From: Clostridiales bacterium | Lineage (GTDB): Bacteria > Bacillota > Clostridia > DUPQ01 | Length of the DNA: 64,000 nucleotides | Reading direction: 5' to 3' | Assembly: GCA_023145435.1 (NCBI GenBank) | Contig: JAGLDS010000003.1 | Location: 1 to 64,000, forward strand | Shown: in pieces, positions 15,308-34,531 of the stretch | Numbering within the stretch: the first letter of the stretch is position 1 | Layout of the letters: each line of letters begins with the position of its first letter | Translations under genes and position numbers: made by a program | The notes under the pieces: model-generated | Database searches by the model: none | What the model saw: the letters and a program-made list of their open reading frames with translations, nothing else | Told to the model about the DNA's origin: nothing

Positions 15308-15316
15308 GGTGGAAAA

Positions 15317-16636: not shown

Positions 16637-16637
16637 A

Positions 16638-17108: not shown

Positions 17109-17542
17109 TTTCATGTACACAATTTATCCCAGCTTATTCAGAAGGATTTAAATATCTTCATAAAAAAGGAGGAAAACAAGAGGTTGTTAAATTTTGGGAA
17201 GTACTATCAGATTTGTACTTAACAGATACCTTAAAAAAACAAATAATAGAAAAAGGAATTAGTGGGTGTTTTGATTACTGGGAAAAAGCACTGAATGAAG
17301 AAGCTGCTGATTTCACAATGACACTTGATAAAGAGATGGGAATATTTGAAGTTGTAATGCATCACTGTCCTTCAAAAGGTATGCTAAATAAATTAACATA
17401 TATGAGCCCATATGAAGATTACTGTGAACATTGTGATTTATTATATAGAAGAGTAATTGAACCTTTAGGTTATACATACAAGATTGATTTAACAAACTGC
17501 CAACAAGCAGCTTGCCGATTAGTCGTTAATAAAAAGAAATAA
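17105..17542 (+). CDS. ATC-hydrolase-like protein, second of a tandem pair
   Basis: A 145-residue soluble protein rich in conserved-looking cysteines: HHCPS near residue 84, YCEHCDLLY near 103, and NCQQAACRLVV near the end. This layout resembles the L-2-amino-thiazoline-4-carboxylic acid hydrolase family (Pfam PF14196), many members of which have no known substrate. It is translationally coupled to its probable paralogue by a four-base ATGA overlap, suggesting a heteromeric enzyme or complex. The DegT aminotransferase gene follows after 16 bases. The assignment is by motif memory only; a role as a hydrolase in the pathway is inferred. Confidence 0.5.
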   Translation: MISCTQFIPAYSEGFKYLHKKGGKQEVVKFWEVLSDLYLTDTLKKQIIEKGISGCFDYWEKALNEEAADFTMTLDKEMGIFEVVMHHCPSKGMLNKLTYMSPYEDYCEHCDLLYRRVIEPLGYTYKIDLTNCQQAACRLVVNKKK

Positions 17543-17558
17543 ACGGAGGATAAGAAAC

Positions 17559-18830
17559 ATGGGAGAAAAAAACAAAGTTATGAATGGAGCAGGCATTGAG
17601 GAGTTAGGATTTCCAATGTGGCCACAATTTGCAAAAGAAACAGCAAAAGACATACAAGAACCAATTTTAAATGGAAAAGTTAATTATTGGACTGGACCAA
17701 AGGGAATGGAATTTGAAAAAGAATGGGCAAAATGGAATGGTTCTAAATATGCTATGTCATGTACAAATGGAACAGCAGCGTTACATATTGCCCTTTCTAG
17801 TATGAACATAGGACCAGGAGATGAAGTTATTGTTCCATCATATTCCTTTATTGCTTCATCATTTGCAATTGTACAAGCAGGAGCGATTCCTGTATTTTGT
17901 GATGTAACCGAAGATCATACTTTAGATCCAACATTACTTGAAGGTTTACTAACAAAGAGGACAAAAGCAATTATTGTTGTTCATCTATATGGTGTTATGA
18001 CAGATATGGATCCAGTTATGGAATTTGCTAGGGCAAATGATTTGAAAGTAATTGAAGACTGTGCTCAATGTTTTGGTGGAGAGTATAATGGAGTTAAAGC
18101 GGGAGTTATTGGAGATGCAGGATGTTTTAGCTTTTGTCAAAGCAAGCATTTTACAACTGGTGGAGAAGGTGGCATGGTTGTAACAAATGATGAGGATTTA
18201 GCATGGGAATGCCGTTCATTTAGAGATCATGGTTATGATGTTAAAGAAAGAATGAATATGTTAGCATTAGAAGAAAAACTACCATATATTCATAATAGAA
18301 TAGGATTTAATTATAGAATGACTGAAATTCAGTCAATTATTGGATTAAATGAATTAAAAAGATTTGATAAATGGAATTTAGCTAGACGATTTAAATATGC
18401 TAATATGTATGACAAAGCTTTTAAAAATCAAAGAGGAATTAGCAGATTACCAGTAAATACAGAAAGCAGAAAGAATGCATATTGGTGGTACCCAATGATT
18501 TTAGCCACTGATATTTTAGACGTAGATGCTACAGAAATCATTAAAGAACTTCAAGGAATGGGAATACCATGTTATGGTATCCAATGGCCAGAAGCATATA
18601 TGGAAAAAGCATACAAAGAGTTAAATGGATTTGGTCAACACAAATTCCCATTTAAATCACGTGAATATACTGACAATAAAAGTGTACAATACGACGAAGT
18701 ACATTGTGATGTTGCAAATTCATTAAGAGATAGAACCATTAATTTGTTTTTACATCCATCATGGGAAGAAGCTCATATCCAACGTTGCATTGATGCTTTT
18801 ATAGAAGTGATACAAAAACACTTAGTTTAA
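17559..18830 (+). CDS. DegT/DnrJ/EryC1/StrS-family PLP aminotransferase
   Basis: A 423-residue fold-type I enzyme of the sugar aminotransferase family. The features are SCTNGTAALHIAL for cofactor phosphate binding, the aspartate strand VIEDCAQ, and the Schiff-base lysine K196 in FCQSKHFTTGGEGGM. The family transfers an amino group to or from keto sugars or cyclitols. With two Gfo/Idh/MocA oxidoreductases in the same operon, a pair that oxidises a sugar hydroxyl and exchanges the ketone for an amine is plausible, as in kanosamine (NtdA/NtdC) chemistry. Either direction is possible. The ribosome site is CGGAGGA. Confidence 0.88.
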   Translation: MGEKNKVMNGAGIEELGFPMWPQFAKETAKDIQEPILNGKVNYWTGPKGMEFEKEWAKWNGSKYAMSCTNGTAALHIALSSMNIGPGDEVIVPSYSFIASSFAIVQAGAIPVFCDVTEDHTLDPTLLEGLLTKRTKAIIVVHLYGVMTDMDPVMEFARANDLKVIEDCAQCFGGEYNGVKAGVIGDAGCFSFCQSKHFTTGGEGGMVVTNDEDLAWECRSFRDHGYDVKERMNMLALEEKLPYIHNRIGFNYRMTEIQSIIGLNELKRFDKWNLARRFKYANMYDKAFKNQRGISRLPVNTESRKNAYWWYPMILATDILDVDATEIIKELQGMGIPCYGIQWPEAYMEKAYKELNGFGQHKFPFKSREYTDNKSVQYDEVHCDVANSLRDRTINLFLHPSWEEAHIQRCIDAFIEVIQKHLV

Positions 18831-18843
18831 GAAGGTGAGAAAA

Positions 18844-19548
18844 ATGAAAGTATTAGCCATTGGTTGTCATCCGGATGATCTTGAAATTGGTTGTGGGGGT
18901 ACATTAGCTAGGTATGTTGATAATGGACATGAAGTCTATATGTGTTATATCGCAAATGGAGATAAAGGCCATGCAGTCATAAAACCAGAGAAGTTAAAAA
19001 AAATTAGAGAAAGAGAAGCCTATGAATCTGCAAAGTTATTAGGAGCAAATAAAGTGTTTTCAATTGACATACCTGATTTGCTAGTTAAAGCTTCAAAGGA
19101 AGATATTGTACTAAAAGTGATGGAGGTTATTAGAGCAGTTAATCCTGATTTAATTATCACCCATGATCCTGATGATTATATGGAAGATCATCGTCAAACA
19201 AGCCAAATAGTGTTTGACGCTTCTTTTTCTGTATCTGTACCTCATTATGAAACACAGTCTAAAGCAACAAGCGTTGTTCCACTATACTATATGGACACCT
19301 TAGCAGGAATAAATTTTCAACCAGAAGAATATGTGGATATAACAAAATATATTGATAAAAAGCTTGCAGCACTTGATAAACATGAAAGCCAAATAAAATG
19401 GATGAGCGATCATGACAAGATTGATTTTTTAGATTTTGTAAAAACAGTATCTAAGTTTAGAGGGTTACAATGTAATGTGACCTATGCTGAAGCTTTTAGA
19501 AGTTGCCATACTTGGCCAAGAGGAACTACCAAGAGATTATTACCATAA
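18844..19548 (+). CDS. PIG-L (LmbE) family N-deacetylase
   Basis: A 234-residue zinc-dependent deacetylase. The zinc site HPDD appears in AIGCHPDDLEIGCGG at the N-terminus, and the third ligand region is DPDDYMEDHRQT. Relatives remove acetyl from GlcNAc-type groups (GlcNAc-PI, bacillithiol and mycothiol precursors, diacetylchitobiose). It could deacetylate an amino sugar in this pathway. The ATG at 18844 follows AAGGTGAGA; a GTG at 18835 in frame overlaps that ribosome site and is unlikely. The C-terminus continues past the core fold with an AEAFRS-type motif typical of the BshB/YojG group. Confidence 0.86.
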   Translation: MKVLAIGCHPDDLEIGCGGTLARYVDNGHEVYMCYIANGDKGHAVIKPEKLKKIREREAYESAKLLGANKVFSIDIPDLLVKASKEDIVLKVMEVIRAVNPDLIITHDPDDYMEDHRQTSQIVFDASFSVSVPHYETQSKATSVVPLYYMDTLAGINFQPEEYVDITKYIDKKLAALDKHESQIKWMSDHDKIDFLDFVKTVSKFRGLQCNVTYAEAFRSCHTWPRGTTKRLLP

Positions 19549-19559
19549 AGGAGTAAAAT

Positions 19560-20510
19560 ATGAATTTTATTGATACTGTGAAAGGATCACTACTAGAAGG
19601 ATTTTATCCAAAGGGATGGGATTTTGAAAAAATTGACCAGTGTTGTTCTGTCAATCCTGCTGATGTTTTAAAAAAACAACCGTTCTGGAATGATGAGTTT
19701 ACACCTGTGATGTGTGAATCTATTCATGATTTTGACATGATGATGGGTCACGAAATTGCCATGGAGATAAAAACAACAGGAGAAAATAATCAAAAATTAG
19801 CAATGATTTTACCAGTTGGGCCCATGGGAATGTATAAATGGGCTGTCTACTTCCTTAAAGAATGGCAAGTAGATGCTAAACATGTATATGGCTTTAATAT
19901 GGATGAATGGTCTGATCAAGATGGAAATACGCTAGAATCAGATGATAAAGGGTCTTTTCAAAATGCAATGATTGATGCTTTTTACGGACCACTTGGAGAT
20001 TTAACTGTTCCAATTAATCAGCGGAATTTTGCTACAAGAGAAAATTTACCTACATATGCTAAAAAAATTAGAGAACTAAAAGATGATGGAGCAAAACTAG
20101 TAACTGTATTTGGTATTGGTAGAATGTGTCACGTTGCTTTCTGGGAACCACAGTTTGCAAGTGAGTTTAAAAGCGTAGACGAATGGAAAAAGCAAACTCA
20201 TAGAGTAGGTGCCATGTTACATCCTCTAACAATCGAGCAAAATGCTATAACAAGTTTCAAAAGCCGAACATCTCTTGTTCCTTGTAGAGCAAATACAATA
20301 GGACCTGGTTTGTTTTTACAATCTGATAAAATTATTGGTGGTTGTGATGGAACATTGGGAAGAGGGATGATGTGGCAAGGAATGTCTTTTTGGATGACAT
20401 TACGTTATGGTCCTGATATGTGGATACCTTCAACTTTTATGCCAACACTGCCAGGAAAACTGTTTTTCCTAAAAGAATTAGCGGGGCCACTTAATGCTGA
20501 ATGTAACTAA
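19560..20510 (+). CDS. NagB-like sugar isomerase/deaminase, divergent
   Basis: A 316-residue protein of the glucosamine-6-phosphate deaminase/isomerase fold. It keeps FNMDEW (the base aspartate region of NagB) and the strand [13 protein letters not shown] at residues 185-197. In true NagB this strand reads GxxxDGHIAFNEP, with a catalytic Asp-His-Glu triad. Here the histidine (H191) and glutamate (E196) remain but the aspartate is Met189. It is also about 50 residues longer than NagB. It is therefore unlikely to be ordinary GlcN6P deaminase and may act on a different amino sugar. The start follows AAAGGAG; its end overlaps the NagA-like gene by 17 bases. Confidence 0.75.
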
Positions 20511-21576
20511 TGGTAGAATTGTCTTAGAAAATAAAATATTTATTGGGAATCTATATTTAAAAGATGGGTTGATTTATACAATTTCAAAGGATAAAGTTTA
20601 TGAAGGTGATATTATTGATGCAAAAGGGCAATTAGTTACTCCAGGATTTATTGATATTCATTGCCATGGAGGAGGAGGACAACTATTTGCCTTTGATCCA
20701 ATTACAGCGCTTAGGGGTCATAAAAAGAGAGGTACTCTAGGTGTTTTACCTACAATTGGCTATAACATGTCAAAAGAAGGTTTTATAAATGGAGTAAAAA
20801 ATATTGTAAAAATAAAAGATGAAGCTATATTAGGGATTAATTGCGAAGGACCTTTTGTAAATCCAGAATATGGAGCAGACACAAGAAATGCTAGAAAAGT
20901 AGACAAAAAAGAATATGAAGCTATTTATGAGGCAGGTCAGGGAAAAATAAGAATCTGGATGATTTCACCTGATATTGATAATGCCAGAGAGTTTATTGAT
21001 TACCTAAAGACAAAAAACGAAGTAGTTTCGTGTGCTGGACATACAGGTTGTACAAAAGAGCAATTAAAAGACATACAATTAATATGCCATTTATATGATG
21101 GAATGGGACCAAAACAACGAGCTTGTAAAGATATTCACGAGACAGGTACAGCGGAGGCTGTACTAGCTGATGATCAGCTATATGCAGAGCTTATTGCTGA
21201 TAGTAAAGGAGTCCATGTTTCGGATTTACTTTTGAAAATAACTTTTAGAGCCATGGGAGAAGATAAAATTATTTTAATATCTGATGCCATTGGTACTAAA
21301 GAAAATTACAGTGATGGAGACTTAAACTATAATGAGTTAGGTCAACTTGCAGGATCTATGATGAGTGTTAATCTAGCTGTTTGTAATATGGTTAAACACA
21401 CTGGCATCACATGGCCACAAGGTGTTAAATTGGCAACACTTAACCCTGCAAAATTATTAGGATTAGATAAAAATCTTGGAAGTATTTTAAAGGGAAAGAA
21501 AGCAAATATTGTAGTAATGAGTGAAAAAGGTGATGTTTATCACGTTATTGAAAATGGGGAGATTTATAATGGATAA
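20494..21576 (+). CDS. NagA-like N-acetylglucosamine-6-phosphate deacetylase / amidohydrolase
   Basis: A 360-residue amidohydrolase-superfamily TIM barrel of the NagA type. Metal ligands seen are H56 and H58 in [12 protein letters not shown], the glutamate in NCEGPF, the histidine in CAGHTG, the histidine in CHLYDGMGP (HLFNAM in standard NagA), and the catalytic aspartate in LISDAIG. The HxH form suggests a binuclear site. NagA hydrolyses the N-acetyl group of GlcNAc-6-P. With a divergent NagB partner it may act on a related substrate. It overlaps the NagB-like gene by 17 bases and the next gene by 8, so the three are tightly coupled. Confidence 0.82.
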
Positions 21577-22612
21577 AATAAAATGGGGAGTTATTGGTGC
21601 AGGAGGGATAGCTAGAAGGAGAACAATTCCAGGGATACTATTAGCAAAAAATGCTGAATTAGTTAGTGTTATGGAAATAGATATGGCTTTAGCTAATGAA
21701 ATCAAGGAACAATTTAATTGTAAGAAAGCATTTGATAATATTGATGATTTATTAAAAGATGATGAGATTGATGCGGTATATATTGCATCTCCTGTTATTT
21801 ACCATAAAGAGCAAGCAATGAACGCTGCAAATGCTGGTAAACATATATTACTTGAAAAACCAATTTGTTTAACAGTAGAAGAAGGCAAAGAAGTTGTTGA
21901 TTATTGTAAACAAAAAAACGTGAAACTAGCAACTGGATTTATGATGAGGTTTCACGCTTACCATAAAAAAATGAAACAACTAGTTAAAGATGGAAAAATT
22001 GGCCAAGTGGTATCTGCGCGAGCCCAATTGACATGTTGGTATCCTGATATGCCTGGTAATTGGAGGCAAAGTTATAATACATCAGGCGGTGGTGCATTAA
22101 TGGACATGGGTGTTCATTGTTTAGATTTAATTCAATATATTACAGGATTTAAAACCAAGCGTGTAGCAGGAATGGCAAGCACATTAACCTTTGATTATGA
22201 AGTAGAAGATTCAGGAGCATTTTTAGTAGAACTAGAAAATGGAGCCATATGCCATGTGGAATCAAACTTTAATATTCCAGATGATGCTGCAAAAGGCAGA
22301 TTAGAATTTTATGGTACAAAAGGAAGCTTGTTAGCAGAAGGAACTATTTCACAAATTGAAACAGGTTCATTGGAAGTTACTTTTTCAGATGACACAAAAG
22401 ATTATGATGCTAAACAAGATAGAACCGAAGATAGAACTAGGCATATAGAGGTTGAATTTGGAAACATGTATGCTAAAGAAATTGATAGTTTTAGTTTATC
22501 AATTAAAAATAATACAAAAATTGAAGTTCCAGCTATAGATGGAATACAGATCCAAAGTGTTGTTGAAGCAGCGTATGCGTCTTCAAAGAATAGTGAATAT
22601 GTGAAATTATAA
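21569..22612 (+). CDS. Gfo/Idh/MocA-family NAD(P)-dependent oxidoreductase
   Basis: A 347-residue enzyme with an N-terminal Rossmann motif VIGAGGIA (residues 8-15) and the family catalytic-lysine motif LLEKPICLTVEE near residue 93, followed by the C-terminal alpha/beta half (GGGALMDMGVHCLDL). Members oxidise or reduce ring hydroxyls of sugars and inositols, or similar carbonyls. It is a natural partner of the DegT aminotransferase in the same operon. The start at 21569 overlaps the NagA-like stop (ATGGATAA). A longer upstream frame exists but would lie inside the NagA-like gene. Confidence 0.88.
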   Translation: MDKIKWGVIGAGGIARRRTIPGILLAKNAELVSVMEIDMALANEIKEQFNCKKAFDNIDDLLKDDEIDAVYIASPVIYHKEQAMNAANAGKHILLEKPICLTVEEGKEVVDYCKQKNVKLATGFMMRFHAYHKKMKQLVKDGKIGQVVSARAQLTCWYPDMPGNWRQSYNTSGGGALMDMGVHCLDLIQYITGFKTKRVAGMASTLTFDYEVEDSGAFLVELENGAICHVESNFNIPDDAAKGRLEFYGTKGSLLAEGTISQIETGSLEVTFSDDTKDYDAKQDRTEDRTRHIEVEFGNMYAKEIDSFSLSIKNNTKIEVPAIDGIQIQSVVEAAYASSKNSEYVKL

Positions 22613-22613
22613 A

Positions 22614-23708
22614 ATGGATGAAATTCGATTACTAAAAAAAATTGATTATGAAAAACTATATACTCTTAGAAGAGAATGCTTTCCTGTGCTAACTAAAATG
22701 CAAGAAGATTTTGCCATGAATCATTATTATGATGAGATCAATTGGTATGGTATCTTTTTAAAAGAGATACTAATATCAGTAATTTGGATTAAACCAATGG
22801 AGTTATCTTTTAACAATACAAAAATCATGGCTGGAGGTATTGGGTCAGTAGCTACTCACCCTAAGTACCGTAACAAAGGTTACTCTAAAAAATTAATAAA
22901 TCATGCTCTTTCTATAATGGTTAAAAGAGGATATGCACTAACATCTTTAGCACCGTTTTTAACAAGTTTTTATGAAAAATTTGGGTATAGTAATACACTA
23001 TCTTTTTATGAAGTAACTTATAAGATGGAACAATTAAATTATCTTAAACAAAAAAGACAAATTAATGAAGACACACCTAGTTTAACTAGTGATTTTGTAA
23101 AAGCGAGAGTTGCTTTTTCTAAGCAATATAACTTGTATTGTCAAAGAGATGAAAAATTAATGGCTTCATATATACAGTCCTTTAAAGAGAAAGAATATAC
23201 AATAAAAGCAATAAATGACATGGGATATGTTATTTTTAAAGAAATAAAAAACAGCATATTTGTTGCTGAAATAGTCTATGAAAACTTAACGATATTAGAT
23301 CAATTGCTTGCCTATATATATAATGTACATAATAATATGGGAAAATTAGTTATTATTACACCACCTGATTATATAATTATTGACTATATAAAAAGTGATT
23401 GTGAAAACATTAAATTAGTACAAGATAAAATGTCAAAAGTTCTAGATGTAAAAAAAATGTTAGCTATAACTAATTTCCCAGATGATATAGCAATAAAAGT
23501 TGATAAGGAATTATATATAAACAGAAAAGACCAGAGTACAATTACTACTAAAGATATAGCTATTCAATTTACAATACAAGGATTTACTCAATATATACTA
23601 GGTGTAAGAAGCCTAATTGAGTTACAATATACTAACCAAGTTATTATAAAAACACCAAAAGAATTTCCAATAATGAAAAAAACACTTTTTGAAAATGAGG
23701 TATATTAA
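22614..23708 (+). CDS. GNAT acetyltransferase, Eis-like architecture
   Basis: A 364-residue protein with a GNAT domain in the first 140 or so residues: the acetyl-CoA pyrophosphate loop is VATHPKYRNKGYSKKLI, preceded by GGIGSVA. The remaining 220 residues are consistent with the second GNAT-like and SCP2-like parts of the Eis family, which acetylate amines of aminoglycosides and other molecules. It begins two bases after the preceding stop. In an amino-sugar cluster, N-acetylation of a pathway amine is plausible but unproven. Its own C-terminal domain identification is weaker than that of the N-terminal domain. Confidence 0.75.
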   Translation: MDEIRLLKKIDYEKLYTLRRECFPVLTKMQEDFAMNHYYDEINWYGIFLKEILISVIWIKPMELSFNNTKIMAGGIGSVATHPKYRNKGYSKKLINHALSIMVKRGYALTSLAPFLTSFYEKFGYSNTLSFYEVTYKMEQLNYLKQKRQINEDTPSLTSDFVKARVAFSKQYNLYCQRDEKLMASYIQSFKEKEYTIKAINDMGYVIFKEIKNSIFVAEIVYENLTILDQLLAYIYNVHNNMGKLVIITPPDYIIIDYIKSDCENIKLVQDKMSKVLDVKKMLAITNFPDDIAIKVDKELYINRKDQSTITTKDIAIQFTIQGFTQYILGVRSLIELQYTNQVIIKTPKEFPIMKKTLFENEVY

Positions 23709-24572
23709 ATGAATGATGGATTTTACACAGCATTAGGAACACCACTTGATGAACAAGGACAAATATTAAGTAAAAGTTATACTAATCAAATAAACCAGCA
23801 AATCACAGCTGGAGCGGCTGGGTTACTTTGTATGGGTTCTATGGGAAACATGATTGGAATAAGGGAAAAAGATTATGTTACGGTTGCTTTAGAAGGTGTT
23901 AAGGCAAATCAAAAAAGAGTTCCGTTGATGATTGGAGTAATGGATAATTCAATTAGTAGAGTTATGGATCGAGTAGAGGCTATATCTCATTTGGATTTTG
24001 ATGGTATTGTAGCAACTACACCATTTTACTATGTTGTTAATCAATCACAAATTATTTCTTTTTATACATCAATTGCGAATCAATCTAAAAAGCCTTTGTA
24101 TTTATATGATTTACCAGGAGTTACACAGTCGCCTATTTCAGTAGATAGCGTACTTAATTTAATGAAACATGAAAACATAAAAGGAATCAAATCAGGTAAT
24201 ATGAATTTAATATCAGCTTTAATGAGACATCCATATATGCAAGATGACTTTGATCTTCTTTTTAGTGGACTTGATACATTCGATATTGCTTTACAAGGAG
24301 GCATTAAGAAAAACCTAGATGGAATGTTTTGCTGTACCCCTAATAACACAAATAAAATGTATCAAGGTGATAATCCATTTTATTATTTAAAGAACATTCT
24401 TGGATTAAGGAATATATTTATAAAACATGGTGTCTTAGCCAGTTTCTCATATTCAATGGAATTATTAGGGTTACCAGGACGATACCATGAAGATTATTCA
24501 CAAAATATAAATAATCAAGCAAAAGAAGAAATAAAAGCATTTATGGATAGTATAGGGGAAGAAACAAAATGA
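23709..24572 (+). CDS. Dihydrodipicolinate synthase / N-acetylneuraminate lyase family aldolase
   Basis: A 287-residue TIM-barrel class-I aldolase. The family residues seen are GSMGNM (for GTTGE), the tyrosine in LYLYDLPG near residue 133 and the Schiff-base lysine in IKGIKSGN near residue 160. Family members condense or cleave pyruvate with an aldehyde. The usual GTTGE phosphate/carboxylate loop is altered to GSMGNM, so the true DapA reaction is unlikely. A catabolic aldolase or lyase for a keto-deoxy sugar acid is possible. It starts directly after the preceding stop, and its stop overlaps the next start by ATGA. Confidence 0.78.
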   Translation: MNDGFYTALGTPLDEQGQILSKSYTNQINQQITAGAAGLLCMGSMGNMIGIREKDYVTVALEGVKANQKRVPLMIGVMDNSISRVMDRVEAISHLDFDGIVATTPFYYVVNQSQIISFYTSIANQSKKPLYLYDLPGVTQSPISVDSVLNLMKHENIKGIKSGNMNLISALMRHPYMQDDFDLLFSGLDTFDIALQGGIKKNLDGMFCCTPNNTNKMYQGDNPFYYLKNILGLRNIFIKHGVLASFSYSMELLGLPGRYHEDYSQNINNQAKEEIKAFMDSIGEETK

Positions 24573-25477
24573 AACTTTCTAAAATGACATTGGGAACTGT
24601 ACAATTAGGGCTGAATTATGGAATAAATAACAAAGAGGGAAAACCTTCATTAGAAAAAGCATTTGATATTTTAGATATGGCTATTTTAAATAACATTACT
24701 ACTTTAGATACAGCTGCTGGATATGGAGACAGTGAAAAAGTCATTGGGCAGTATTTTTATAAAAACAACCAAGCAAAAAACAATTGTAATATTGTAACAA
24801 AATTTAAACTAGGAAATATTCAAAGAAGCGAAGTTGAAAAAAATATTTATCAATCAATTGAACAATCATTATTAAATTTAGGTGTTAATAACGTTGAAAC
24901 ATTATTAATGCATGACGCCAAAGAATATGAGCAATATCAAAAAGAGATTGATAAAACATATGAGAAATTATTAAATGAAAAATTAATTAATAATGCAGGT
25001 GCTAGTGGTTATACATTTGAAGAAATCAACGATATGTTAGCAAATGAATTATATTCTTCCTATCAATTACCTGTAAACATGTTAGATCAACGTATTACTG
25101 CACATAAGGATAAAAAGAAAAAGTTACAAAATAAGACACTATATGTTAGAAGCGTATATTTACAAGGGATTTTCTTTAAAGAACCAAATAAATTAACTGG
25201 TAATTTAAAAGAAATAAAACCTTACTTAGATAAGGTTAATTCCTTTGCAGACAAAGAGAATATGAGCGTTGCTGAATTAGCTTTAAGGTATGTTAATAGT
25301 CTTAATTATGTAAATTCATTGGTAATTGGATGTGACAATATAACACAAGTAAAAGAAAATATAACATTACTTAACAAAACTCCTTTTTCAAATGATAAAA
25401 TGAAAGAGATTGAAGAATTATTAAGTGGAGTACCTGAATGGATATTTTTTCCAATGCTTTGGGATAAACAAGGATAG
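24569..25477 (+). CDS. Aldo/keto reductase
   Basis: A 302-residue NAD(P)H-dependent carbonyl reductase of the AKR fold. The catalytic residues lie in LDTAAGYGDSE (Asp and Tyr), VTKFKLG (Lys) and LLMHDAKE (His). The first strand reads MTLGTVQLGLNYG, a form typical of the bacterial AKRs found in sugar biosynthesis and catabolism clusters. The substrate is unknown, probably an aldehyde or ketone of the same pathway. It overlaps the aldolase gene by four bases. Confidence 0.85.
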   Translation: MKLSKMTLGTVQLGLNYGINNKEGKPSLEKAFDILDMAILNNITTLDTAAGYGDSEKVIGQYFYKNNQAKNNCNIVTKFKLGNIQRSEVEKNIYQSIEQSLLNLGVNNVETLLMHDAKEYEQYQKEIDKTYEKLLNEKLINNAGASGYTFEEINDMLANELYSSYQLPVNMLDQRITAHKDKKKKLQNKTLYVRSVYLQGIFFKEPNKLTGNLKEIKPYLDKVNSFADKENMSVAELALRYVNSLNYVNSLVIGCDNITQVKENITLLNKTPFSNDKMKEIEELLSGVPEWIFFPMLWDKQG

Positions 25478-25489
25478 TGAGGGATAAAA

Positions 25490-26278
25490 ATGAATATATT
25501 AGATAGATTTTCGTTGGCTGGGAAAGTGGCATTAGTGACAGGGGGATCAGGATTATATGGTAGACAAATGGTTATTGCTTTAGCACAAGCAGGGGCTATA
25601 ACATATACAGCATCAAGGAATTTAGAAAAATTAACGCAGTTTACAGATAAGTTAAAAAGAGAAGAAAACTTAACTGTTACTCCATTAGAGTATGATCAAA
25701 GTAATCATGGTTCTATTATTAAATTGAAAAATGAAATAGTGAAACGAAGCGGAAAAATTGATATATTAATTAATAATTCTGTAGCAAGAAGTGGACATAT
25801 TGCTGAATTAACTACTGAAAAACTAGACAATGATTTTAAAGTAAATGGTACAGGATTGATATTAATGCATCGTGAATTTGCTGATCAAATGGCACTTCAA
25901 GGAACTGGTTCAATTATTAATATTGGATCAATTTATGGTTTAGTGGGCTATGATGATTGGTTATATGAAGGAACAGGGTTATTAAAAACAGGAGGAGCTG
26001 CCTACTACTATAACAAAGGAGGAATTGCAAATTTAACTAAGTTTTTTGCAGGATTCTATGGTCCAAAAGGTGTTAGAGTAAACTGTATTCACCCAGGTGG
26101 ATATGAAACTAGTCAGCAACCAAAAGAATTTAAAGATAATTACTGTAAAAAAACATTTTTAAAGCGATTAGCAAATGATGATGATATGAAAGGTATTTTA
26201 GTTTTTCTAGCAAGTGATGCATCAAGTTATATCACAGGAACAAATATACCAGTTGATGGTGGATTAACAGCTAAATAA
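25490..26278 (+). CDS. Short-chain dehydrogenase/reductase (FabG-like)
   Basis: A 262-residue classical SDR. It has the cofactor motif TGGSGLYG near residues 18-25, the stabilising NNS strand (ILINNSVARSG), the catalytic serine in NIGSIYG and the YYYNKGG segment with a YxxxK pair. The C-terminal IPVDGGLTAK ending is typical of gluconate-5-dehydrogenase or similar sugar-acid enzymes. A 20-residue insertion (YDDWLYEGTGLLKTGG) precedes the active-site tyrosine, which is unusual. The ribosome site is GAGGGA. Confidence 0.87.
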   Translation: MNILDRFSLAGKVALVTGGSGLYGRQMVIALAQAGAITYTASRNLEKLTQFTDKLKREENLTVTPLEYDQSNHGSIIKLKNEIVKRSGKIDILINNSVARSGHIAELTTEKLDNDFKVNGTGLILMHREFADQMALQGTGSIINIGSIYGLVGYDDWLYEGTGLLKTGGAAYYYNKGGIANLTKFFAGFYGPKGVRVNCIHPGGYETSQQPKEFKDNYCKKTFLKRLANDDDMKGILVFLASDASSYITGTNIPVDGGLTAK

Positions 26279-26284
26279 GAAGAT

Positions 26285-26302
26285 TGTTGAATGCAATCAA
26301 CA
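26285..26302. promoter_or_regulatory. Inverted repeat in the only sizeable gap of the gene cluster
   Basis: TGTTGA and TCAACA (26285-26290 and 26297-26302) flank six bases. This gap of 103 bases is the only one over 20 bases between the ROK gene and the end of the cluster. It may be an operator for the ROK protein or a small hairpin; it is followed by A rather than T residues, so it is not a plus-strand terminator. Confidence 0.35.
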
Positions 26303-26381
26303 AAAAAACTGGATATAAAAGAAGATAATTACTTAAATACAGTTTGGTTATATTTACTATTATCATAAGAAGGAGCAAAAG

Positions 26382-27341
26382 ATGAAACCGATTATTCAAA
26401 AAAAGCAAATAAATCTAGCCATGATAGGAATGGTTGCTGAAAATGGACATCCATATTCTTGGAGTGCCATTTGTAATGGTTATGACGAAAAGGAAATGAA
26501 AGAATGTGGTTATCCAGTTATACCTCAATATTTAGGTGAACAACCAAAAGAAACACTAACTATTCCTAATGTGAATGTAACACATATTTGGTGTGATGAT
26601 TATGATCAGGCAAAACATGTAGCAAAAGCATCTCTTATTCCTAATGTGGTAAAAAATCCTGAAGATGTTATAGGAAAGGTAGATGCAGTTGTAATTCCTA
26701 CAGATAAAGGATGGGAACATGTTAATAGGGTGAGACCATTTATGGAAGCAAACATACCTATATTTATTGACAAACCAATGTGTGATAATGAGAAAGACTT
26801 AAAGCAGTTTATAAAATGGCACAAGGAAGGTAAAAAGTTTATATCATCTAGTTCCATGAGATATAATCCAGGATTACAAGAATTAAGAGAAAACACAACC
26901 CAATATGGTAATTTAAAATATGCAACTATTACAACACCAAAAACTTGGGAGAGATATGGGATACATGCTTTAGAAGGAATATATCCCATTGTAAAACCAG
27001 GTTTTATTTCAGTAAGAAATTCAGGAAACGATAAACGTGATATTGTTCATCTTAAACATGAAAAAGATATTGATGTAGTTATTGCAGCTATTTATGATAT
27101 GAGAGGATGTTTTGGAAAAGTATTACTAGGTGGCGACAAGGGGTTTACTTTTGCTGAATCTGGGGGATCCTATTTCTCTTTTAGAAATCAACTAGAAGCG
27201 TTTATAAGTTATTTACGAACAGGTATAATGCCTTTTGAATTTAGCGAAACAATTGAATTGATGAAAATTATAATTGCAGGAATTAAAAGTAAAAATGAAG
27301 GTAATAGAGAAGTGTTTTTAGAAGAGATAGAGGGATTATAA
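26382..27341 (+). CDS. Gfo/Idh/MocA-family oxidoreductase, divergent
   Basis: A 319-residue protein with the second-half features of the family: the VVIPTDKGWEH strand and IFIDKPMCDNEKD, the counterpart of the usual EKP motif. The N-terminal nucleotide-binding strand reads LAMIGMVAENGHPYSW, without the clear GxGxxG of the other oxidoreductase at 21569, so its cofactor use may differ. The C-terminal half (DIVHLKHEKDIDVVIAAIYDMRG) fits a substrate-binding sheet. Its ribosome site is AAGGAG. The class-III aminotransferase gene follows immediately, TAA directly followed by ATG. Confidence 0.78.
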   Translation: MKPIIQKKQINLAMIGMVAENGHPYSWSAICNGYDEKEMKECGYPVIPQYLGEQPKETLTIPNVNVTHIWCDDYDQAKHVAKASLIPNVVKNPEDVIGKVDAVVIPTDKGWEHVNRVRPFMEANIPIFIDKPMCDNEKDLKQFIKWHKEGKKFISSSSMRYNPGLQELRENTTQYGNLKYATITTPKTWERYGIHALEGIYPIVKPGFISVRNSGNDKRDIVHLKHEKDIDVVIAAIYDMRGCFGKVLLGGDKGFTFAESGGSYFSFRNQLEAFISYLRTGIMPFEFSETIELMKIIIAGIKSKNEGNREVFLEEIEGL

Positions 27342-28541
27342 ATGAAAAAAGATAATAATTATTGGTTTAATCAGTTAGAGAAATATGTGGCAGGCGGGTC
27401 ATCTACAGGTTCAAAAAGAGCCACATTACAACCAGAAGAACCGTCGGTTATTGTTAAAGGTGAAGGTTGTAGAGTTATTGATGCTAATAACAAAGAATAC
27501 ATCGATTTTAGAAATGGACTTGGTCCAGTGACTTTAGGTTATAACTATAAAGAAGTAACTAACGCTATTAAAAGACAATTAAATAAAGGAATTGTGTTTG
27601 GACATCCAACCCCCTTAGAAGCAGAAGTCGCAAAAATGCTTACTAAAATAATTCCTTGTGCAGAGAAAGTACGCTTTTTAAAAACAGGAGGAGAAGCGCT
27701 AGCTGCTTGTATTAAATTAGCAAGGGCTTATACTAGTAAAAAGCATATAATACAGATTGGCTATAATGGGTGGATTAACACCTTAGGTGAGGGAGCAAAA
27801 CTAAATCCAAGAGATATATCAACAGGAGTTCCTCTTGGAATTACTGAAGAACTTAGTCAATTACATCACACTGTTAAATGGAACGATGAGAAAACTGTGA
27901 AACAATTGTATGAAACATATAAAGGTGAGATTGCTGCAATTATAGTTGCAGCTGATTATGAGGAAATGGAAAGAGGTCAAACCTTTTATCCGTTTTTAAG
28001 AGATATAACAAAGAAAAATAAAAGTGTATTAGTTTTTGATGAAATTGTTACAGGTTTTAGAATAGCTTTAGGAGGAGTATCTGAATACTTTAATGTTGTT
28101 CCTGATTTAGCTGTTTATGCAAAAGGAATTGCAAATGGTATGCCTTTGTCTTGTTTTTGTGGGAAAAAAGAAATTATGGAATTTGTTACAAAGGGAGCTA
28201 CAATTTCCTCAACTTATGGTGGAGAAACTCTATCACTAGCTGCATGTAAACAGGTAATAAAAATATATAAAAGCGAACCTATCATAGATCACTTGTGGGA
28301 AATGGGAGAAAAATTATTTGGTGCATTAAACCGATTGTTTGAAGAGAAAAACTATGATATTCGCGTAAAAGGATTTCCTCCATGTGCAATTTTTGTAACT
28401 AAAGATCAATCTCTTTTACAAGAATTTTTTAGACATGCCTATGATAATGGAGTGTCTTTATATAATGTTTCTTATGTGAACTACTCTCATAAAGAAAAGG
28501 ATATTGACGAGGTTATAAAAATCTTAAAAAACTGTATTTGA
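27342..28541 (+). CDS. Class-III PLP aminotransferase (glutamate-1-semialdehyde aminomutase-like)
   Basis: A 399-residue fold-type I enzyme related to HemL and omega-aminotransferases. The features are FLKTGGEALAACIKLARAYT, the aspartate motif VFDEIVTGFRIALGG, and the cofactor lysine in VYAKGIANGMPL near residue 265. It starts YVAGGSSTGSKR where HemL has a similar PGGVNSPVR loop. No haem biosynthesis gene is nearby, so a transaminase or aminomutase in the local pathway is more likely than tetrapyrrole synthesis. It is the last gene of the ROK-led cluster; the next gene begins 83 bases later, behind a possible promoter. Confidence 0.85.
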   Translation: MKKDNNYWFNQLEKYVAGGSSTGSKRATLQPEEPSVIVKGEGCRVIDANNKEYIDFRNGLGPVTLGYNYKEVTNAIKRQLNKGIVFGHPTPLEAEVAKMLTKIIPCAEKVRFLKTGGEALAACIKLARAYTSKKHIIQIGYNGWINTLGEGAKLNPRDISTGVPLGITEELSQLHHTVKWNDEKTVKQLYETYKGEIAAIIVAADYEEMERGQTFYPFLRDITKKNKSVLVFDEIVTGFRIALGGVSEYFNVVPDLAVYAKGIANGMPLSCFCGKKEIMEFVTKGATISSTYGGETLSLAACKQVIKIYKSEPIIDHLWEMGEKLFGALNRLFEEKNYDIRVKGFPPCAIFVTKDQSLLQEFFRHAYDNGVSLYNVSYVNYSHKEKDIDEVIKILKNCI

Positions 28542-28624
28542 AGTTACACATAATAAACATTAACAATAATAGTTATTTTGATTATGATATAATAATTATA
28601 TCAAAAGGTAAGGGGCTAAATTTT

Positions 28625-30859
28625 ATGGAAATATCTATTGGTTCAATCAATAAAATTAACAATATATTTGAAAAAGCAGACAGCGAAAAGCGAACAATGT
28701 TATATGAACATGAAGTATATGAACTTCTTGATTGGGTTGGACTTTCTGTTCCTAAAAATGTACTTATTACTGAGACAAATCAAGTAACTGAAGACGTTTT
28801 ACAACCATTTGGTGACAAAGTGGTTATTAAAGTAGTATCTAAAGACATTATTCATAAACAAAAGCTAGGGGGGGTTAAAATTGTTAATAAACATGACCCT
28901 ATTTTTGTACAATATGTCATAGATAAAATGAGAACTGAAATTTTATCAAATTATGATACAAAGTTACCTCATATTGAGGGATTTCTCATAGTAGAGTTTG
29001 TTGAGTTTTCCAGTGGATTAGGAAATGAACTGTTATTGGGAATAAAGTGTGATAGAGCTTTTGGTCCAGTTATTACATTAAGTAAGGGTGGCGATGATGC
29101 AGAGTTTTTTGCTAAGTACTATGATAAGGCAAATTTAGTTTTACCTCATTTAAACTTAGAACAAGCAACAAAGTTAGCTAGTAGTATTAAAATAAGACAC
29201 AAATATATTGAAACAGGACATCCTGAATACACAGATCTAATCGCAAAAACCACTTCAATTATAAGTGCACTTGCTTATAATTATTCAAAAGTTAATTTAG
29301 ATAATCCAACTTACTATATAACACAAGCAGACTTTAATCCTTTTGTGTTTTCTAAGACTGGAAAATTTGTGGCAGTAGATGGATATGTATCCTTTGAAAA
29401 AGCTCAAAAGCAAAATGATGAATTAACAGTTAATACAAATAATTTAATACCATTTTTTAAACCGAATGGAGTAGCTATTGTAGGTGTTACTTCAGATCCA
29501 AATAAATATAGTATGGGAAAAGAAATTGCCCATTTAATGCACGAGTTAGGACGAGACGACTTATACTGTGTAAATCCAAAAGGTGGTACAGTGAAATTAG
29601 GAGATAAAGACTATCCTCTATATCAAAGTATTGACCACATTGAAAAATCAGTAGACTTAGCTATTTATACAGCTCCAGCAAAACATATTTCATCTTTCTT
29701 TGAAAGCATGGAAAAAAACATCCCCAAATCTGTTGTGTTAATTCCAGGAATTCCATCAGATATAGATTATCAAGAATTTAAAAGTGATCTAAAAAGCAAG
29801 GTGAAAGAAGGAATTAGAGTTATTGGTCCAAATTGTATGGGAACTTACTATGGAAAAGGGAAAGATGCCATTGGTGTTAATTCTCTATTTATTGAAGAGG
29901 ATCGATTACATATTGAATCTAATGAACTAAGTAATGTTGTTTTACTGTCACAAAGTGGTGGAATGGCAATCACTATGATTGATAAACTTAAAAACACACC
30001 AATTTTTAAGGCAGTTGTTAGTTTTGGAAATAAGTATGATGTAAAAATTACTGATTTAATAGCTTTATTTGAATTACAAGATATTATTGAAGTAATTGCC
30101 CTTTATGTTGAAGGTTTTGACACATTAGAAGGGCGAGCATTCTTTGAAATGGCTAAGAATTCTATAAAGCCTATTATTGTATACAAAGGTGGTAAAACAG
30201 AAGCGGGAGCAAAGGCTGCACAAAGCCACACAGCTTCTATGACTGGTGATTATGAAGTTTTTAAATCCGCATGTCAACAAGCAAATGTAATTTTATTAGA
30301 AGATGCTAGTATGTACATGAATACTATTAAAACTTTTTCATTATTAGCACATAAAGAAATTAAGGGAATGAATGTGGCAGGAGTGTTAAACGCTGGTTTT
30401 GAAGCTACAATTGCATCTGATGAATTAGGTAGTTTACAGTTAGCAAAACCAAGTGAAAAAACAATGAAAACACTAAAAAGTATTAATACACATGGATTAG
30501 TTGATGTTAGCAATAGCATCATGGACGTAACACCTATGACTGATGATGTAAGGTATGGTCAATATATTGAAGCTTTTTTAAAAGATGACAATGTGGATAG
30601 CGTTTTAGTTGGAGTAGTTCCACATGTTGAAAATATCAAATCTACACCAGACACTTGCCATGATGATAATTCTCTTGCAAATATTATTGTAAAATTGTTT
30701 CATAAATATAATAAGCCAATTATAGTGTCGGTTAATGCTAGTGAATACTATGCAGAGTTTGTTTCTGTTATGGAAAAAGGTGGATTACCTGTTTTTACTG
30801 ACATCCGTTTAGCTGTTAGGACACTAGAAATATTTGCAAAATATAAGAATTTACGCTAA
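28625..30859 (+). CDS. ADP-forming acyl-CoA synthetase, single-chain, ATP-grasp first
   Basis: A 744-residue fused acyl-CoA synthetase of the acetyl-CoA synthetase (ADP-forming) family. An ATP-grasp domain occupies about residues 1-235 (VVIKVVSKDIIHKQKLGGVK), followed by a CoA-binding Rossmann domain (VAIVGVTSDPNKYSMGKEI) and the ligase domains with the phospho-histidine motif QSHTASMTGD near residue 540. The reaction is reversible: acyl-CoA + ADP + Pi gives acid + CoA + ATP, an energy-conserving step in anaerobes. The domain order is the reverse of the common CoA-binding-first form. ATG 28625 has AAGGGG upstream, and a TATAAT-like sequence sits just before it. Confidence 0.86.
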   Translation: MEISIGSINKINNIFEKADSEKRTMLYEHEVYELLDWVGLSVPKNVLITETNQVTEDVLQPFGDKVVIKVVSKDIIHKQKLGGVKIVNKHDPIFVQYVIDKMRTEILSNYDTKLPHIEGFLIVEFVEFSSGLGNELLLGIKCDRAFGPVITLSKGGDDAEFFAKYYDKANLVLPHLNLEQATKLASSIKIRHKYIETGHPEYTDLIAKTTSIISALAYNYSKVNLDNPTYYITQADFNPFVFSKTGKFVAVDGYVSFEKAQKQNDELTVNTNNLIPFFKPNGVAIVGVTSDPNKYSMGKEIAHLMHELGRDDLYCVNPKGGTVKLGDKDYPLYQSIDHIEKSVDLAIYTAPAKHISSFFESMEKNIPKSVVLIPGIPSDIDYQEFKSDLKSKVKEGIRVIGPNCMGTYYGKGKDAIGVNSLFIEEDRLHIESNELSNVVLLSQSGGMAITMIDKLKNTPIFKAVVSFGNKYDVKITDLIALFELQDIIEVIALYVEGFDTLEGRAFFEMAKNSIKPIIVYKGGKTEAGAKAAQSHTASMTGDYEVFKSACQQANVILLEDASMYMNTIKTFSLLAHKEIKGMNVAGVLNAGFEATIASDELGSLQLAKPSEKTMKTLKSINTHGLVDVSNSIMDVTPMTDDVRYGQYIEAFLKDDNVDSVLVGVVPHVENIKSTPDTCHDDNSLANIIVKLFHKYNKPIIVSVNASEYYAEFVSVMEKGGLPVFTDIRLAVRTLEIFAKYKNLR

Positions 30860-30864
30860 TTTGC

Positions 30865-30888
30865 GAACAAATTGTAAAATAATTCGTT
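30865..30888 (+). promoter_or_regulatory. ECF-type promoter upstream of the sigma factor gene
   Basis: GAAC (30865-30868) and CGTT (30885-30888) are separated by exactly 16 bases, the arrangement used by many extracytoplasmic-function sigma factors. It lies 27 bases before the ECF gene itself, which is the classic position for autoregulation. The core motif is short, so chance cannot be excluded. Confidence 0.6.
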
Positions 30889-30915: not shown

Positions 30916-31473
30916 ATGGATGAAATATTAATAAATGAATATCTTGATGGAAAAGAAGGATCAATTGATTTACTGATTGATAGGTACTCTAGACCGCTAT
31001 ATAAACTTTGCTTTAATTTAGTGAAAAACAATTTTGAAGCAGATGATTTGTTTCAAGAAACTTGGATAAAAATTATTAGAAATATTCACAAATACAAATC
31101 AAAAAACTTTAAGAATTTTCTCTATAAGGTTTGTATAAACACCTATAAAGATCAATATCGGAAAAACAAAAAACAGAAAAATCTATTTTCACTAATGGAA
31201 GATGAATTGTATATGAGGCGATTAGAAAAAGTACAAGCAACTAATAGTGAAAATATTCTTGTGCAAAAAGAATTAGTAAATTATATGATGGAAAATCTTT
31301 ATTCATTAAAAGACCATTACAGAATTCCCCTCATTTTGTTTTACTTTGATGGTATGAAATACCAAAAGATTGCTGAGGTCATGGGTGTTTCCATGGGTAC
31401 GGTTAAATCTAGAATTAGTAAAGGAAAACAAAAGTTAAAAGAAACTATGGAGGTGAATTACAATGTCATATAA
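30916..31473 (+). CDS. ECF-type RNA polymerase sigma factor
   Basis: A 185-residue sigma-70 family factor with region 2 (FEADDLFQETWIKIIRNIHKY, residues 41-61) and region 4 (MKYQKIAEVMGVSMGTVKSRISKGKQKL, residues 148-175), and no regions 1 or 3. It would direct RNA polymerase to a small regulon, including its own gene given the GAAC/CGTT promoter upstream. The start follows GAGAGGAG. The anti-sigma gene overlaps it by 11 bases, so the two are made together. Confidence 0.9.
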   Translation: MDEILINEYLDGKEGSIDLLIDRYSRPLYKLCFNLVKNNFEADDLFQETWIKIIRNIHKYKSKNFKNFLYKVCINTYKDQYRKNKKQKNLFSLMEDELYMRRLEKVQATNSENILVQKELVNYMMENLYSLKDHYRIPLILFYFDGMKYQKIAEVMGVSMGTVKSRISKGKQKLKETMEVNYNVI

Positions 31474-34400
31474 TATTGATAAAAAACTTGATACTCTAAA
31501 AGAATTGGAAATTATTCCATCATCTTTGTTATTACATAAAACAAAAATGTTAGCAAGAGCTGCCACAGAGCAACGTAAGAAGAAAGCTATAATAAATTGG
31601 ATGCCTACACTGGTCAGTAGTTTAGTTGCTGTAATAGCTATTGTATTTGCAGTAATGATGTTTTTTAATGCAAATAGTAGTAAATCAATAATTTCAGGAG
31701 AAACTGCTGCAATTTATTCTCTAGATATAAATCCTTCCATAGAATTAGGAGTTGATTTATCCAAAGAAGTTATTGAAGTAAAAAGTTTAAATGAAGAAGG
31801 AAAAGAATTACTTAAAGCAGTTAATTGTATTGGTAAAGAACTAGATAAAAGTATAGATGAATTATTAAAAATGGCTGAGGAAATAGGATACATCGATGCT
31901 AATACAGAAAACTATGTTATTGTTTCTGAAATCGTAGTAAAAGATAGTTTTGAATCAATGGAAGAACAAGTAAAGAGTATTATCAAACCTGAATCAGTTA
32001 AATTAATATTCCTAATTGGTGATCTTGCAAATAAAGAAAGTGCCGATGTTAAAGGGATATCAACTGGTAAAGAAATTTTTCAAAAAAAAGCAAAAGAAAT
32101 CGGTGTTGATATAAAAGATAGTGATCTTCTTGAAAAAAGCATTAAAGAGGTAATTTCAGGAACCACCCAAGAAGTGGGCGATATTTTTAACGAAAAAGAA
32201 TACATTGGACCTGTTGTTAATACAGATTCACAAACAGGTTATATATTAGTTGATTGGGAAGCCATAGAAGATGAAGAGTTAAAAGGATATAAGATTGTAA
32301 TATCAAAAAACAACGAAACACCTGTATATGCAGCAGATGGTTATCTTGTTTACCTAACAGATAAAACTATGACATCATATATAATTGATAACCAACTAGC
32401 CTATAATGATGGTGATTTTGGAAGTTATTTAGAGGATATGGACAGTTACTATATTAGTGTTAGTGCTATATATAATCAAAAAATAGTTCCAGGAAATGCA
32501 GTGCTAACACAATTTGTTGCTAAAAAAGCAGTTGTAACTCCATCGCCAACTCCAATACCCACACCTACTCCAACTCCAAATCCTGTTCCAATAGTTACTC
32601 CTTCTAGTAATATTACAGGTCAAAGAAACTCTGATGGATCAATAGCGCTATCATGGGATAAAATTGATAGTGAACATTTCCAAGGATATAAAGTAGTAAC
32701 ATCGTCAACTAACCCTAATCCCAAATATCCTAATGACGGTTACATTATATATATTACAGATAAAAACACTACATCATTGAATGTAGGAAATGAATACCTA
32801 GGTAAATTATCTGCGGGAACTTCCTATTATTTCAGCGTAACAGTACTATATAACAACCAATCCCCAGTTGCAGGCAACTCAATATATCTTAAGTATTTAG
32901 ACAAACAAGAACCTGAGCCAACTGTTAATTTATCTTCAACAATTACGGGAGAAAGACTAAGTAATGGTAATATTATATTAGGATGGGAAAAAATTGAAAG
33001 TTCTACTTTCCAAGGGTATAAGGTAGTTGCATCAAAAAACAATCCAACACCTAAGTATCCAGAAGATGGATATATTAAGTATATTACAAGTAGCTCAACA
33101 ACTTCATTATTAGCAGATGATAGCTTCATGGGCCAATTAGAAGCGGGTGTTGAGTATTACTTTAGCATTACAGTGCTGTACACAAATGAAAAAGTTGCAG
33201 GTAATGCCATTAAATTAAAGTATCTAGATACACAAGTTACACCACCAAGCACAGAGAATTCATCTACAATAAGTGGACAACGCCTTTTAAATGGACAAGT
33301 AGCACTTACCTGGGAACAGATTAATGACTCTTCTTTCCAAGGGTATAAGGTAGTTGCATCAAAAAACAATCCAACACCTAAGTATCCAGAAGATGGATAT
33401 ATTAAGTATATTACAAGTAGCTCAACAACTTCACTATTAGTTGATGAGAGCTTTCTTGGTCAACTTGAAAAAGGAGAAGAATATTACTTTAGTATTACAG
33501 TACTATATACTAGTGAAAAAGTTGCAGGTAATGCCATTAAATTAAAGTATTTAGATACACAAATTACACCACCAAGCACTGGGAGTTCATCTACAATAAG
33601 TGGACAACGCCTTTCAAATGGACAAGTAGTACTTACCTGGGAACAGATTAATGACTCTTCTTTCCAAGGGTATAAGGTAGTTGCATCAAAAAACAATCCA
33701 ACACCTAAGTATCCAGAAGATGGATATATAAGGTATATCACAAGTAATACAACAACTTCACTATTAGTTGATGAGAGCTTTCTTGGTCAACTTGAAAAAG
33801 GAGAAGAATATTACTTTAGTATTACAGTACTATATACCGGTGAAAAAGTTGCAGGTAATGCAATAAGATTGCAATATTTAGATGAAGGGGAGGCTTCTAC
33901 ATTTGAAAGTAGTACAATTGCTGGAGTTAGATTAGAAGATGGCAGCATACAATTGGCTTGGCAAAAAATTGACGATGTAGCTTTTAGTGGGTATAAAATT
34001 GTAGCATCTGCTACCAACCCAAATCCAAAATATCCAGAGGATGGATATATAAAATATATAACAAATAGTAATACTGTTTTACTAAATGTGGGAGAAGTAT
34101 TTTTAGGTAAATTAACACCTGGAACTACATATTATTTTTCAGTTACTGTATTGTATGGAGGTTTAAAAGTACCTGGGAACGCCGTACAACTTCAATATAT
34201 GACAAAAGGAGATGTGGCTACTTATGAAGCTAGTAACATTACAGGAGTTAGACAAGAAAATGGTAGTATAGAATTAACGTGGGATAGAATTGACCATATA
34301 GGATTTGAAGGCTATAAGATCGTGGCATCTGCTACAGATCCAAATCCTAGTTATCCAGATGATGGGTATATCACATGGATAACTAATAGAGATGTGACAT

Positions 34401-34531
34401 CATTGCTAGTTGATGGTAGTTATTCGTCAAAGTTAACAGAAGGTGTAAATTATTATTTCTCTGTATCAACGTTATACTACTCACATAGTATAATAATACC
34501 GGGTAATTCAGTTTATTTAGAGTTTAAGTAA
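31463..34531 (+). CDS. Membrane-anchored anti-sigma factor, RsgI-like, with seven FN3-like ectodomain modules
   Basis: A 1022-residue transmembrane protein. Residues 1-45 are cytoplasmic and basic and should bind the sigma factor; one helix follows at about 47-68; residues 82-187 match the RsgI-type middle domain (AAIYSLDINPSIELGVD). Outside come a first beta module (about 246-352), a Pro/Thr linker (358-380) and six further modules of about 107-109 residues from residue 383 to the end. Each carries the motif NPxPKYPxDGYIxYIT and GYKVV. In clostridial SigI/RsgI systems such ectodomains sense polysaccharides; here the ligand is unknown. The ribosome site is GGAGGTG. Confidence 0.85.
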   Translation: MSYNIDKKLDTLKELEIIPSSLLLHKTKMLARAATEQRKKKAIINWMPTLVSSLVAVIAIVFAVMMFFNANSSKSIISGETAAIYSLDINPSIELGVDLSKEVIEVKSLNEEGKELLKAVNCIGKELDKSIDELLKMAEEIGYIDANTENYVIVSEIVVKDSFESMEEQVKSIIKPESVKLIFLIGDLANKESADVKGISTGKEIFQKKAKEIGVDIKDSDLLEKSIKEVISGTTQEVGDIFNEKEYIGPVVNTDSQTGYILVDWEAIEDEELKGYKIVISKNNETPVYAADGYLVYLTDKTMTSYIIDNQLAYNDGDFGSYLEDMDSYYISVSAIYNQKIVPGNAVLTQFVAKKAVVTPSPTPIPTPTPTPNPVPIVTPSSNITGQRNSDGSIALSWDKIDSEHFQGYKVVTSSTNPNPKYPNDGYIIYITDKNTTSLNVGNEYLGKLSAGTSYYFSVTVLYNNQSPVAGNSIYLKYLDKQEPEPTVNLSSTITGERLSNGNIILGWEKIESSTFQGYKVVASKNNPTPKYPEDGYIKYITSSSTTSLLADDSFMGQLEAGVEYYFSITVLYTNEKVAGNAIKLKYLDTQVTPPSTENSSTISGQRLLNGQVALTWEQINDSSFQGYKVVASKNNPTPKYPEDGYIKYITSSSTTSLLVDESFLGQLEKGEEYYFSITVLYTSEKVAGNAIKLKYLDTQITPPSTGSSSTISGQRLSNGQVVLTWEQINDSSFQGYKVVASKNNPTPKYPEDGYIRYITSNTTTSLLVDESFLGQLEKGEEYYFSITVLYTGEKVAGNAIRLQYLDEGEASTFESSTIAGVRLEDGSIQLAWQKIDDVAFSGYKIVASATNPNPKYPEDGYIKYITNSNTVLLNVGEVFLGKLTPGTTYYFSVTVLYGGLKVPGNAVQLQYMTKGDVATYEASNITGVRQENGSIELTWDRIDHIGFEGYKIVASATDPNPSYPDDGYITWITNRDVTSLLVDGSYSSKLTEGVNYYFSVSTLYYSHSIIIPGNSVYLEFK
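32936..33910 (+). repeat. Near-identical 327-base tandem coding repeats in the anti-sigma ectodomain
   Basis: Three successive module units repeat with an exact 327-base period; the sequence TTCCAAGGGTATAAGG recurs at 33008, 33335 and 33662, and about 90 following bases are almost unchanged. The outer modules, upstream and downstream, are more diverged in DNA. This indicates recent in-frame duplication, 109 codons per unit. Confidence 0.9.

Follow-up and report, generated by a model that had tools for sequence, protein, structure and literature searches.

A 64,000-nucleotide stretch of the genome of a Clostridiales bacterium (the window) was found to carry an ECF sigma factor gene joined to the gene of a single-pass membrane anti-sigma factor, in which a short cytoplasmic end is followed by an RsgI_M/SEAL domain with a conserved scissile motif and by seven FN3 modules, the pair lying behind a promoter pattern conserved among its relatives. 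We consider it probable that this locus encodes an ECF sigma factor controlled by a self-cleaving SEAL anti-sigma factor with an FN3 arm, from which the sigma factor would be released onto its own promoter. The window forms the start of its contig in a MAG of 1.44 Mb that is 69% complete, and among named relatives the nearest is Clostridia bacterium isolate CSMAG_202, with a protein 85% identical. The features of the locus are the following:

30865..30888, + strand: putative autoregulatory ECF promoter, GAAC (-35, 30865-30868), N16, CGTT (-10, 30885-30888), conserved upstream of the sigma gene
30916..31473, + strand: ECF sigma factor, 185 aa
31463..34531, + strand: membrane anti-sigma factor, 1022 aa (ATG at 31463, stop at 34531)
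31463..31600, + strand: cytoplasmic N-terminal region, short (aa 1-46) and presumed to bind the sigma factor (no match to RsgI_N, no zinc-finger cysteines)
31601..31672, + strand: single transmembrane helix, about aa 47-70
31712..32086, + strand: RsgI_M/SEAL-type domain, aa 84-208
31730..31735, + strand: predicted self-cleavage site Asn90-Pro91 in DINPS (invariant motif; cleaved solved relatives)
32204..32530, + strand: FN3 module 1, divergent, with insertion (this and the following modules from the module alignment)
32531..32602, + strand: Pro/Thr-rich linker (TPSPTPIPTPTPTPNP), read directly from the sequence
32603..32902, + strand: FN3 module 2
32933..33232, + strand: FN3 module 3
33260..33559, + strand: FN3 module 4, modelled jointly with module 5
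33587..33886, + strand: FN3 module 5, modelled jointly with module 4
33908..34207, + strand: FN3 module 6
34229..34528, + strand: FN3 module 7, C-terminal end of the protein

The sigma and anti-sigma genes share an 11-nt overlap. The sigma factor matched the profiles Sigma70_r2 (PF04542; 60.4 bits), Sigma70_r4_2 (PF08281; 50.3 bits), and TIGR02937 sigma70-ECF (101 bits), and contained regions 2 and 4 only, which places it among the ECF sigma factors; its nearest solved structures in a PDB comparison were SigW and SigE, both of the ECF type. Regarding the surroundings, the anti-sigma gene has a tail-to-tail overlap of 19 bp (34513-34531) with a convergent gene encoding a 181-aa membrane/TPR-like protein, an arrangement preserved in L031 and L032. 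An ORF for an ADP-forming acyl-CoA synthetase (28538-30859) sits before the sigma gene; its TTG start as given is probably too early, and its relatives start about 29 residues downstream at MEISIG or MNISIG (744-745 aa). Further upstream, co-directed genes of the sugar-modification/catabolism type (14150-28541) include those encoding ROK, DegT aminotransferase, PIG-L deacetylase, GFO/IDH/MocA, DHDPS-like, and class-III aminotransferase proteins.

The cytoplasmic end of the anti-sigma factor was modelled as helical with low confidence, and a Pfam profile search returned no recognised anti-sigma domain in it; likewise, the zinc-binding anti-sigma motif HxxxCxxC of the RsiW type was absent from the cytoplasmic part, the sole cysteine (C122) being located outside the membrane. 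The transmembrane helix is the only hydrophobic segment according to the Kyte-Doolittle analysis and corresponds to helix 49-71 of the model. The domain at aa 84-208 scored 80.5 bits for RsgI_M (PF23750; cut-off 25.3), and the convincing Foldseek matches of its predicted structure were RsgI periplasmic domains and nothing else (8t9n, 8hdj, and 8her; E 4e-9 to 8e-6; TMt 0.67-0.83), the best target-normalised TM score, 0.83, being obtained with 8t9n. To examine this domain, a comparison set of 23 RsgI_M proteins was used, composed of 10 SigI-type proteins, whose genes adjoin a SigI gene, and 13 proteins with an ECF neighbour. Residues D88, N90, P91, and S92 (DxNPS) were invariant in the alignment of all of them. 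In the predicted structure, N90-P91 falls in the turn joining strands 83-88 and 92-97, the first hairpin, and the chains of the cleaved RsgI structures 8hdj, 8heq, 8her, 8hep, and 8u9o start at the residue aligned with P91. The SEAL domain is predicted on these grounds to cleave itself between N90 and P91.

Seven modules were counted through their common GYK[IV]V core, at a spacing of 107-133 aa and with nothing beyond module 7; all pairs of modules were related (z 20-77 over composition-matched shuffles), and TRF reported a tandem array (327 bp x 2.7) over modules 3-5. These results bear out the seven-module repeat ectodomain described for 31463-34531 in the initial annotation. The motif NPxPKYPxDGYIxYIT, given there as shared by the modules, was near-exact in modules 2-6 but altered in module 7 (NPSYPDDGYITWIT) and most altered in module 1 (ETPVYAADGYLVYLT), which also contains an extra 7-aa insertion and represents the oldest split among the modules. 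In 24 modules taken from four genomes, seventeen positions did not vary, among them P40, Y42, D45, and G46 of the motif. The whole protein scored 59.5 bits for fn3 (PF00041; cut-off 25) and a marginal 33.4 bits for CBM_4_9 (cut-off 25.9); when scanned singly, 15 of the 24 modules matched PF00041 and one matched CBM_4_9, weakly (E 0.009). The structure prediction and fold search proposed as a check gave an AlphaFold model of modules 4-5 with a mean pLDDT of 91, whose top Foldseek matches were FN3 pairs of human fibronectin, neogenin, and contactin. Both the sequence and the predicted fold identify the modules as divergent FN3 domains. The earlier descriptions of FN3-like modules and of an anti-sigma factor with an extracellular repeat arm are both supported by Pfam, AlphaFold, and Foldseek, and of the possibility raised with them, that the repeat is an ordinary known FN3 family with a structural role only, the FN3 half holds. 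The carbohydrate-binding role hinted at for the ectodomain found no such backing, the Pfam profile search having returned no separate CBM in the anti-sigma factor; a CBM identity of the modules was rejected as the main reading, given the single marginal profile match and the FN3 fold. A phage origin of the module was likewise discarded, as no match was found in the phages searched.

Within the genus, orthologues of the first, second, and distal modules can each be recognised, and the middle modules have been turned over. Despite this inner turnover, both lineages of the genus with a completely readable array have seven modules, which hints that the length of the arm matters. An FN3 module is about 3.5 nm long, and a seven-module arm would therefore measure an estimated 25 nm or so, a length suited to reaching through the wall.

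The module was detected in 6 of 291 genomes in the class sample and in 13 of 399 in the phylum sample, its carriers belonging to seven genera in all, the window's own included. The carriers were of two kinds, namely ECF-partnered RsgI_M anti-sigma factors, with seven modules in the window's genus, six in a sister genus (G006), and five detected in a distant family (G499), and surface proteins, SLH-anchored or secreted, that contain between one and five modules. In other Bacillota, one to five copies placed after SLH domains were located at L079:5663-8074, L080:6078-7814, L111:4914-6683, L112:4665-6395, and L114:5078-6268. That SLH surface proteins share the module makes a surface arm a more likely identity for the array than a classical carbohydrate-binding module. 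The FN3-type sigma/anti-sigma pair is a small subfamily in three lineages, and no further members were found near G499 in nine other genomes of its order. ECF-neighboured RsgI_M anti-sigma factors as such are widespread, the other types bearing PepSY repeats (L006, L007, L009, L021, and L137) or no ectodomain (L008, L011, L014, L115, and L143), each with its own sigma clade. In the sigma tree, the FN3-type sigma factors formed one branch (94/93), the PepSY-type another (100/99), and the short/no-sensor type a third (100/99). From these clades we infer that ECF systems recruited the SEAL domain repeatedly, a reading held at that level by the small sampling of the tree and the long branches flagged for L021 and one outside ECF sigma factor.

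The pattern GAAC-N16-CGTT was present, 48-59 bp ahead of the start codon of the sigma gene, in six of six FN3-type loci and in none of ten other ECF-RsgI_M loci; the background in shuffled sequence did not exceed 0.5% per locus. The six loci correspond to four genus members, G006, and G499; since the genus members are not independent, the conservation counts as three lineages. The putative promoter of the operon combines an AAC-type -35 with a CGT-type -10 element, and this fit to the pattern of ECF promoters supports autoregulation by the sigma factor. Genome-wide, counts of GAAC-N16-CGTT were not above the reversed-pattern control and in fact fell below it; a large regulon is unsupported by them, and the regulon may consist of the operon alone. 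Two further sites were recorded. A GGAAC-T-tract-N-CGTT sequence, upstream of a sigma-A-like promoter, is conserved in three species before a MotA/ExbB-like plus OmpA-like operon (L193:1006, L194:1008, and L195:1090), which makes this operon a candidate target of the FN3-type or another ECF sigma factor. Additionally, GAAC-N16-CGTT occurs at the end of another ECF gene in four genomes (L181:2054, L182:2054, L184:1490(-), and L185:1030(-)), just before the expected position of an anti-sigma gene, as seen for the G000 copy.

According to the mechanism that we favour, the short cytoplasmic end of the anti-sigma factor would hold the sigma factor, and outside the membrane the SEAL domain would cut itself between Asn90 and Pro91, its halves staying joined through a shared beta-sheet. 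The Pro/Thr-rich linker and the seven FN3 modules would extend through and past the wall, so that a pull on the arm, or binding and displacement at the surface, could part the pre-cut halves. The parting of the halves by force is reportedly the model proposed for RsgI in the paper on the SEAL domain. The anti-sigma factor would next be degraded, first by a site-2 protease and afterwards by a Clp protease, and the freed ECF sigma factor would act through GAAC-N16-CGTT on its own operon, with a small regulon as a probable further target. In C. thermocellum RsgI6, autocleavage of the periplasmic domain is followed by RseP and then by ClpXP (PMC12203970); by analogy with this published chain, we infer the same order of autocleavage, site-2 protease, and Clp protease for the ECF locus, with the ECF sigma factor as the cargo. 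M50 site-2 proteases are present in four related genomes, and a search of the window's own genome, only 69% complete, found none. This missing M50 match speaks against the proposed mechanism, as do the pattern counts, which did not exceed the control, and the N-terminal region, which models poorly and matched no recognised anti-sigma domain.

That the locus might be an ordinary SigI/RsgI system, as the initial annotation implied by calling the protein RsgI-type, follows from the RsgI_M domain, and this central domain is indeed the part of the description that stood; membership of RsgI/SigI did not. RsgI_N (PF12791) was found in all 10 SigI-type proteins, and the family scan of all 23 proteins returned exactly 10 with RsgI_N, so that no ECF-partnered protein has it. 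The profile search gave no RsgI_N match in the anti-sigma factor 31463-34531, and SigI is absent beside it, the neighbour being the ECF sigma factor with Sigma70_r2 and r4_2. Moreover, three related genomes (G001, G002, and G006) have a second, RsgI_N-type RsgI_M protein in addition to the ECF locus, and in G001 and G006 the SigI gene adjoins that second protein. Strict RsgI membership was accordingly rejected, and an ordinary SigI/RsgI system is highly improbable. With an ECF partner and no RsgI_N, the protein is, as judged from its sequence, an ECF anti-sigma factor carrying the RsgI switch, whose self-cleavage is predicted; this membrane-proximal switch is the only part common to SigI-type and ECF-type proteins.

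Two other readings concern what the arm does. The array could be a ligand sensor whose NPxPKYPxDGYIxYIT loop binds a polysaccharide or surface polymer, the binding rather than a pull triggering the switch, as in the cellulosome RsgI proteins of C. thermocellum, where polysaccharides are sensed by C-terminal domains (PMC12203970). The invariance of the loop residues P40, Y42, D45, and G46 over the 24 modules and the marginal whole-protein match to CBM_4_9 agree with it. However, CBM_4_9 was matched by a single module against 15 for fn3, FN3 proteins topped the fold search, no dedicated binding domain sits at the tip of the arm, and the modules also occur in SLH and secreted proteins that have no sensor, which leaves this an unlikely reading. 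Somewhat less likely still is that the modules self-associate, their targets being similar modules or partners on the S-layer or matrix of the cell itself; the anti-sigma factor would then read the state of the surface coat. The presence of the module in SLH-anchored proteins of other Bacillota is compatible with this, but a search of the window's own genome, which is incomplete, and of three others of the genus found the module in the anti-sigma protein only, and thus no like-module partner was seen. A self-cleaving SEAL anti-sigma factor with an FN3 arm remains the reading that we prefer.

When compared to the RsgI anti-sigma factors (B. subtilis RsgI and C. thermocellum RsgI1-9), the protein is alike in its single membrane pass, RsgI_M/SEAL domain, NP motif, and variable ectodomain, and differs in its ECF partner, the absence of RsgI_N, and an FN3 array without CBM, GH, or PA14. 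With SigW-RsiW-type pairs, the locus shares the ECF regions 2 and 4, a co-encoded membrane anti-sigma factor, and the GAAC-N16-CGT autoregulatory promoter; in contrast to them, it lacks the zinc-finger anti-sigma domain, and the site-1 cut is predicted to be made by the protein itself and not by a site-1 protease. The ECF-partnered RsgI_M proteins of the PepSY and no-sensor types have the ECF neighbour, SEAL domain, and NPS motif in common with it, whereas they carry PepSY or no ectodomain, belong to other sigma clades, and have no GAAC-N16-CGTT upstream. The pair sigma24C-Rsi24C of C. thermocellum (Cthe_1470-1471), not named as SigI, carries a surface GH5 domain on its anti-sigma factor (PMC3990059); both systems thus place a surface domain on the anti-sigma factor, GH5 there and the FN3 array here. 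A literature search, with most subscription papers outside its reach, returned nothing relevant on a combination of ECF, RsgI_M, and FN3.

To our knowledge, SEAL-domain signalling has been studied so far for SigI/RsgI only, and the loci described here suggest that ECF sigma factors too are governed by this breakable domain, each clade having an arm type of its own. It is possible, though we advance it tentatively, that SEAL is a portable, mechanosensory switch that bacteria have combined with unrelated sigma factors (SigI and several ECF clades) and with interchangeable arms, the FN3 array of this subfamily acting as a force arm with a logic like that of eukaryotic SEA-domain receptors. Should the SEAL domain indeed govern ECF sigma factors, sigma control gated by force or contact would be more widespread in Bacillota than SigI alone, and swaps of arms or sigma factors between systems would directly test what SEAL measures. 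Our results suggest that the cell relies on a breakable sensor of a standard kind, whose switches and arms are interchangeable.
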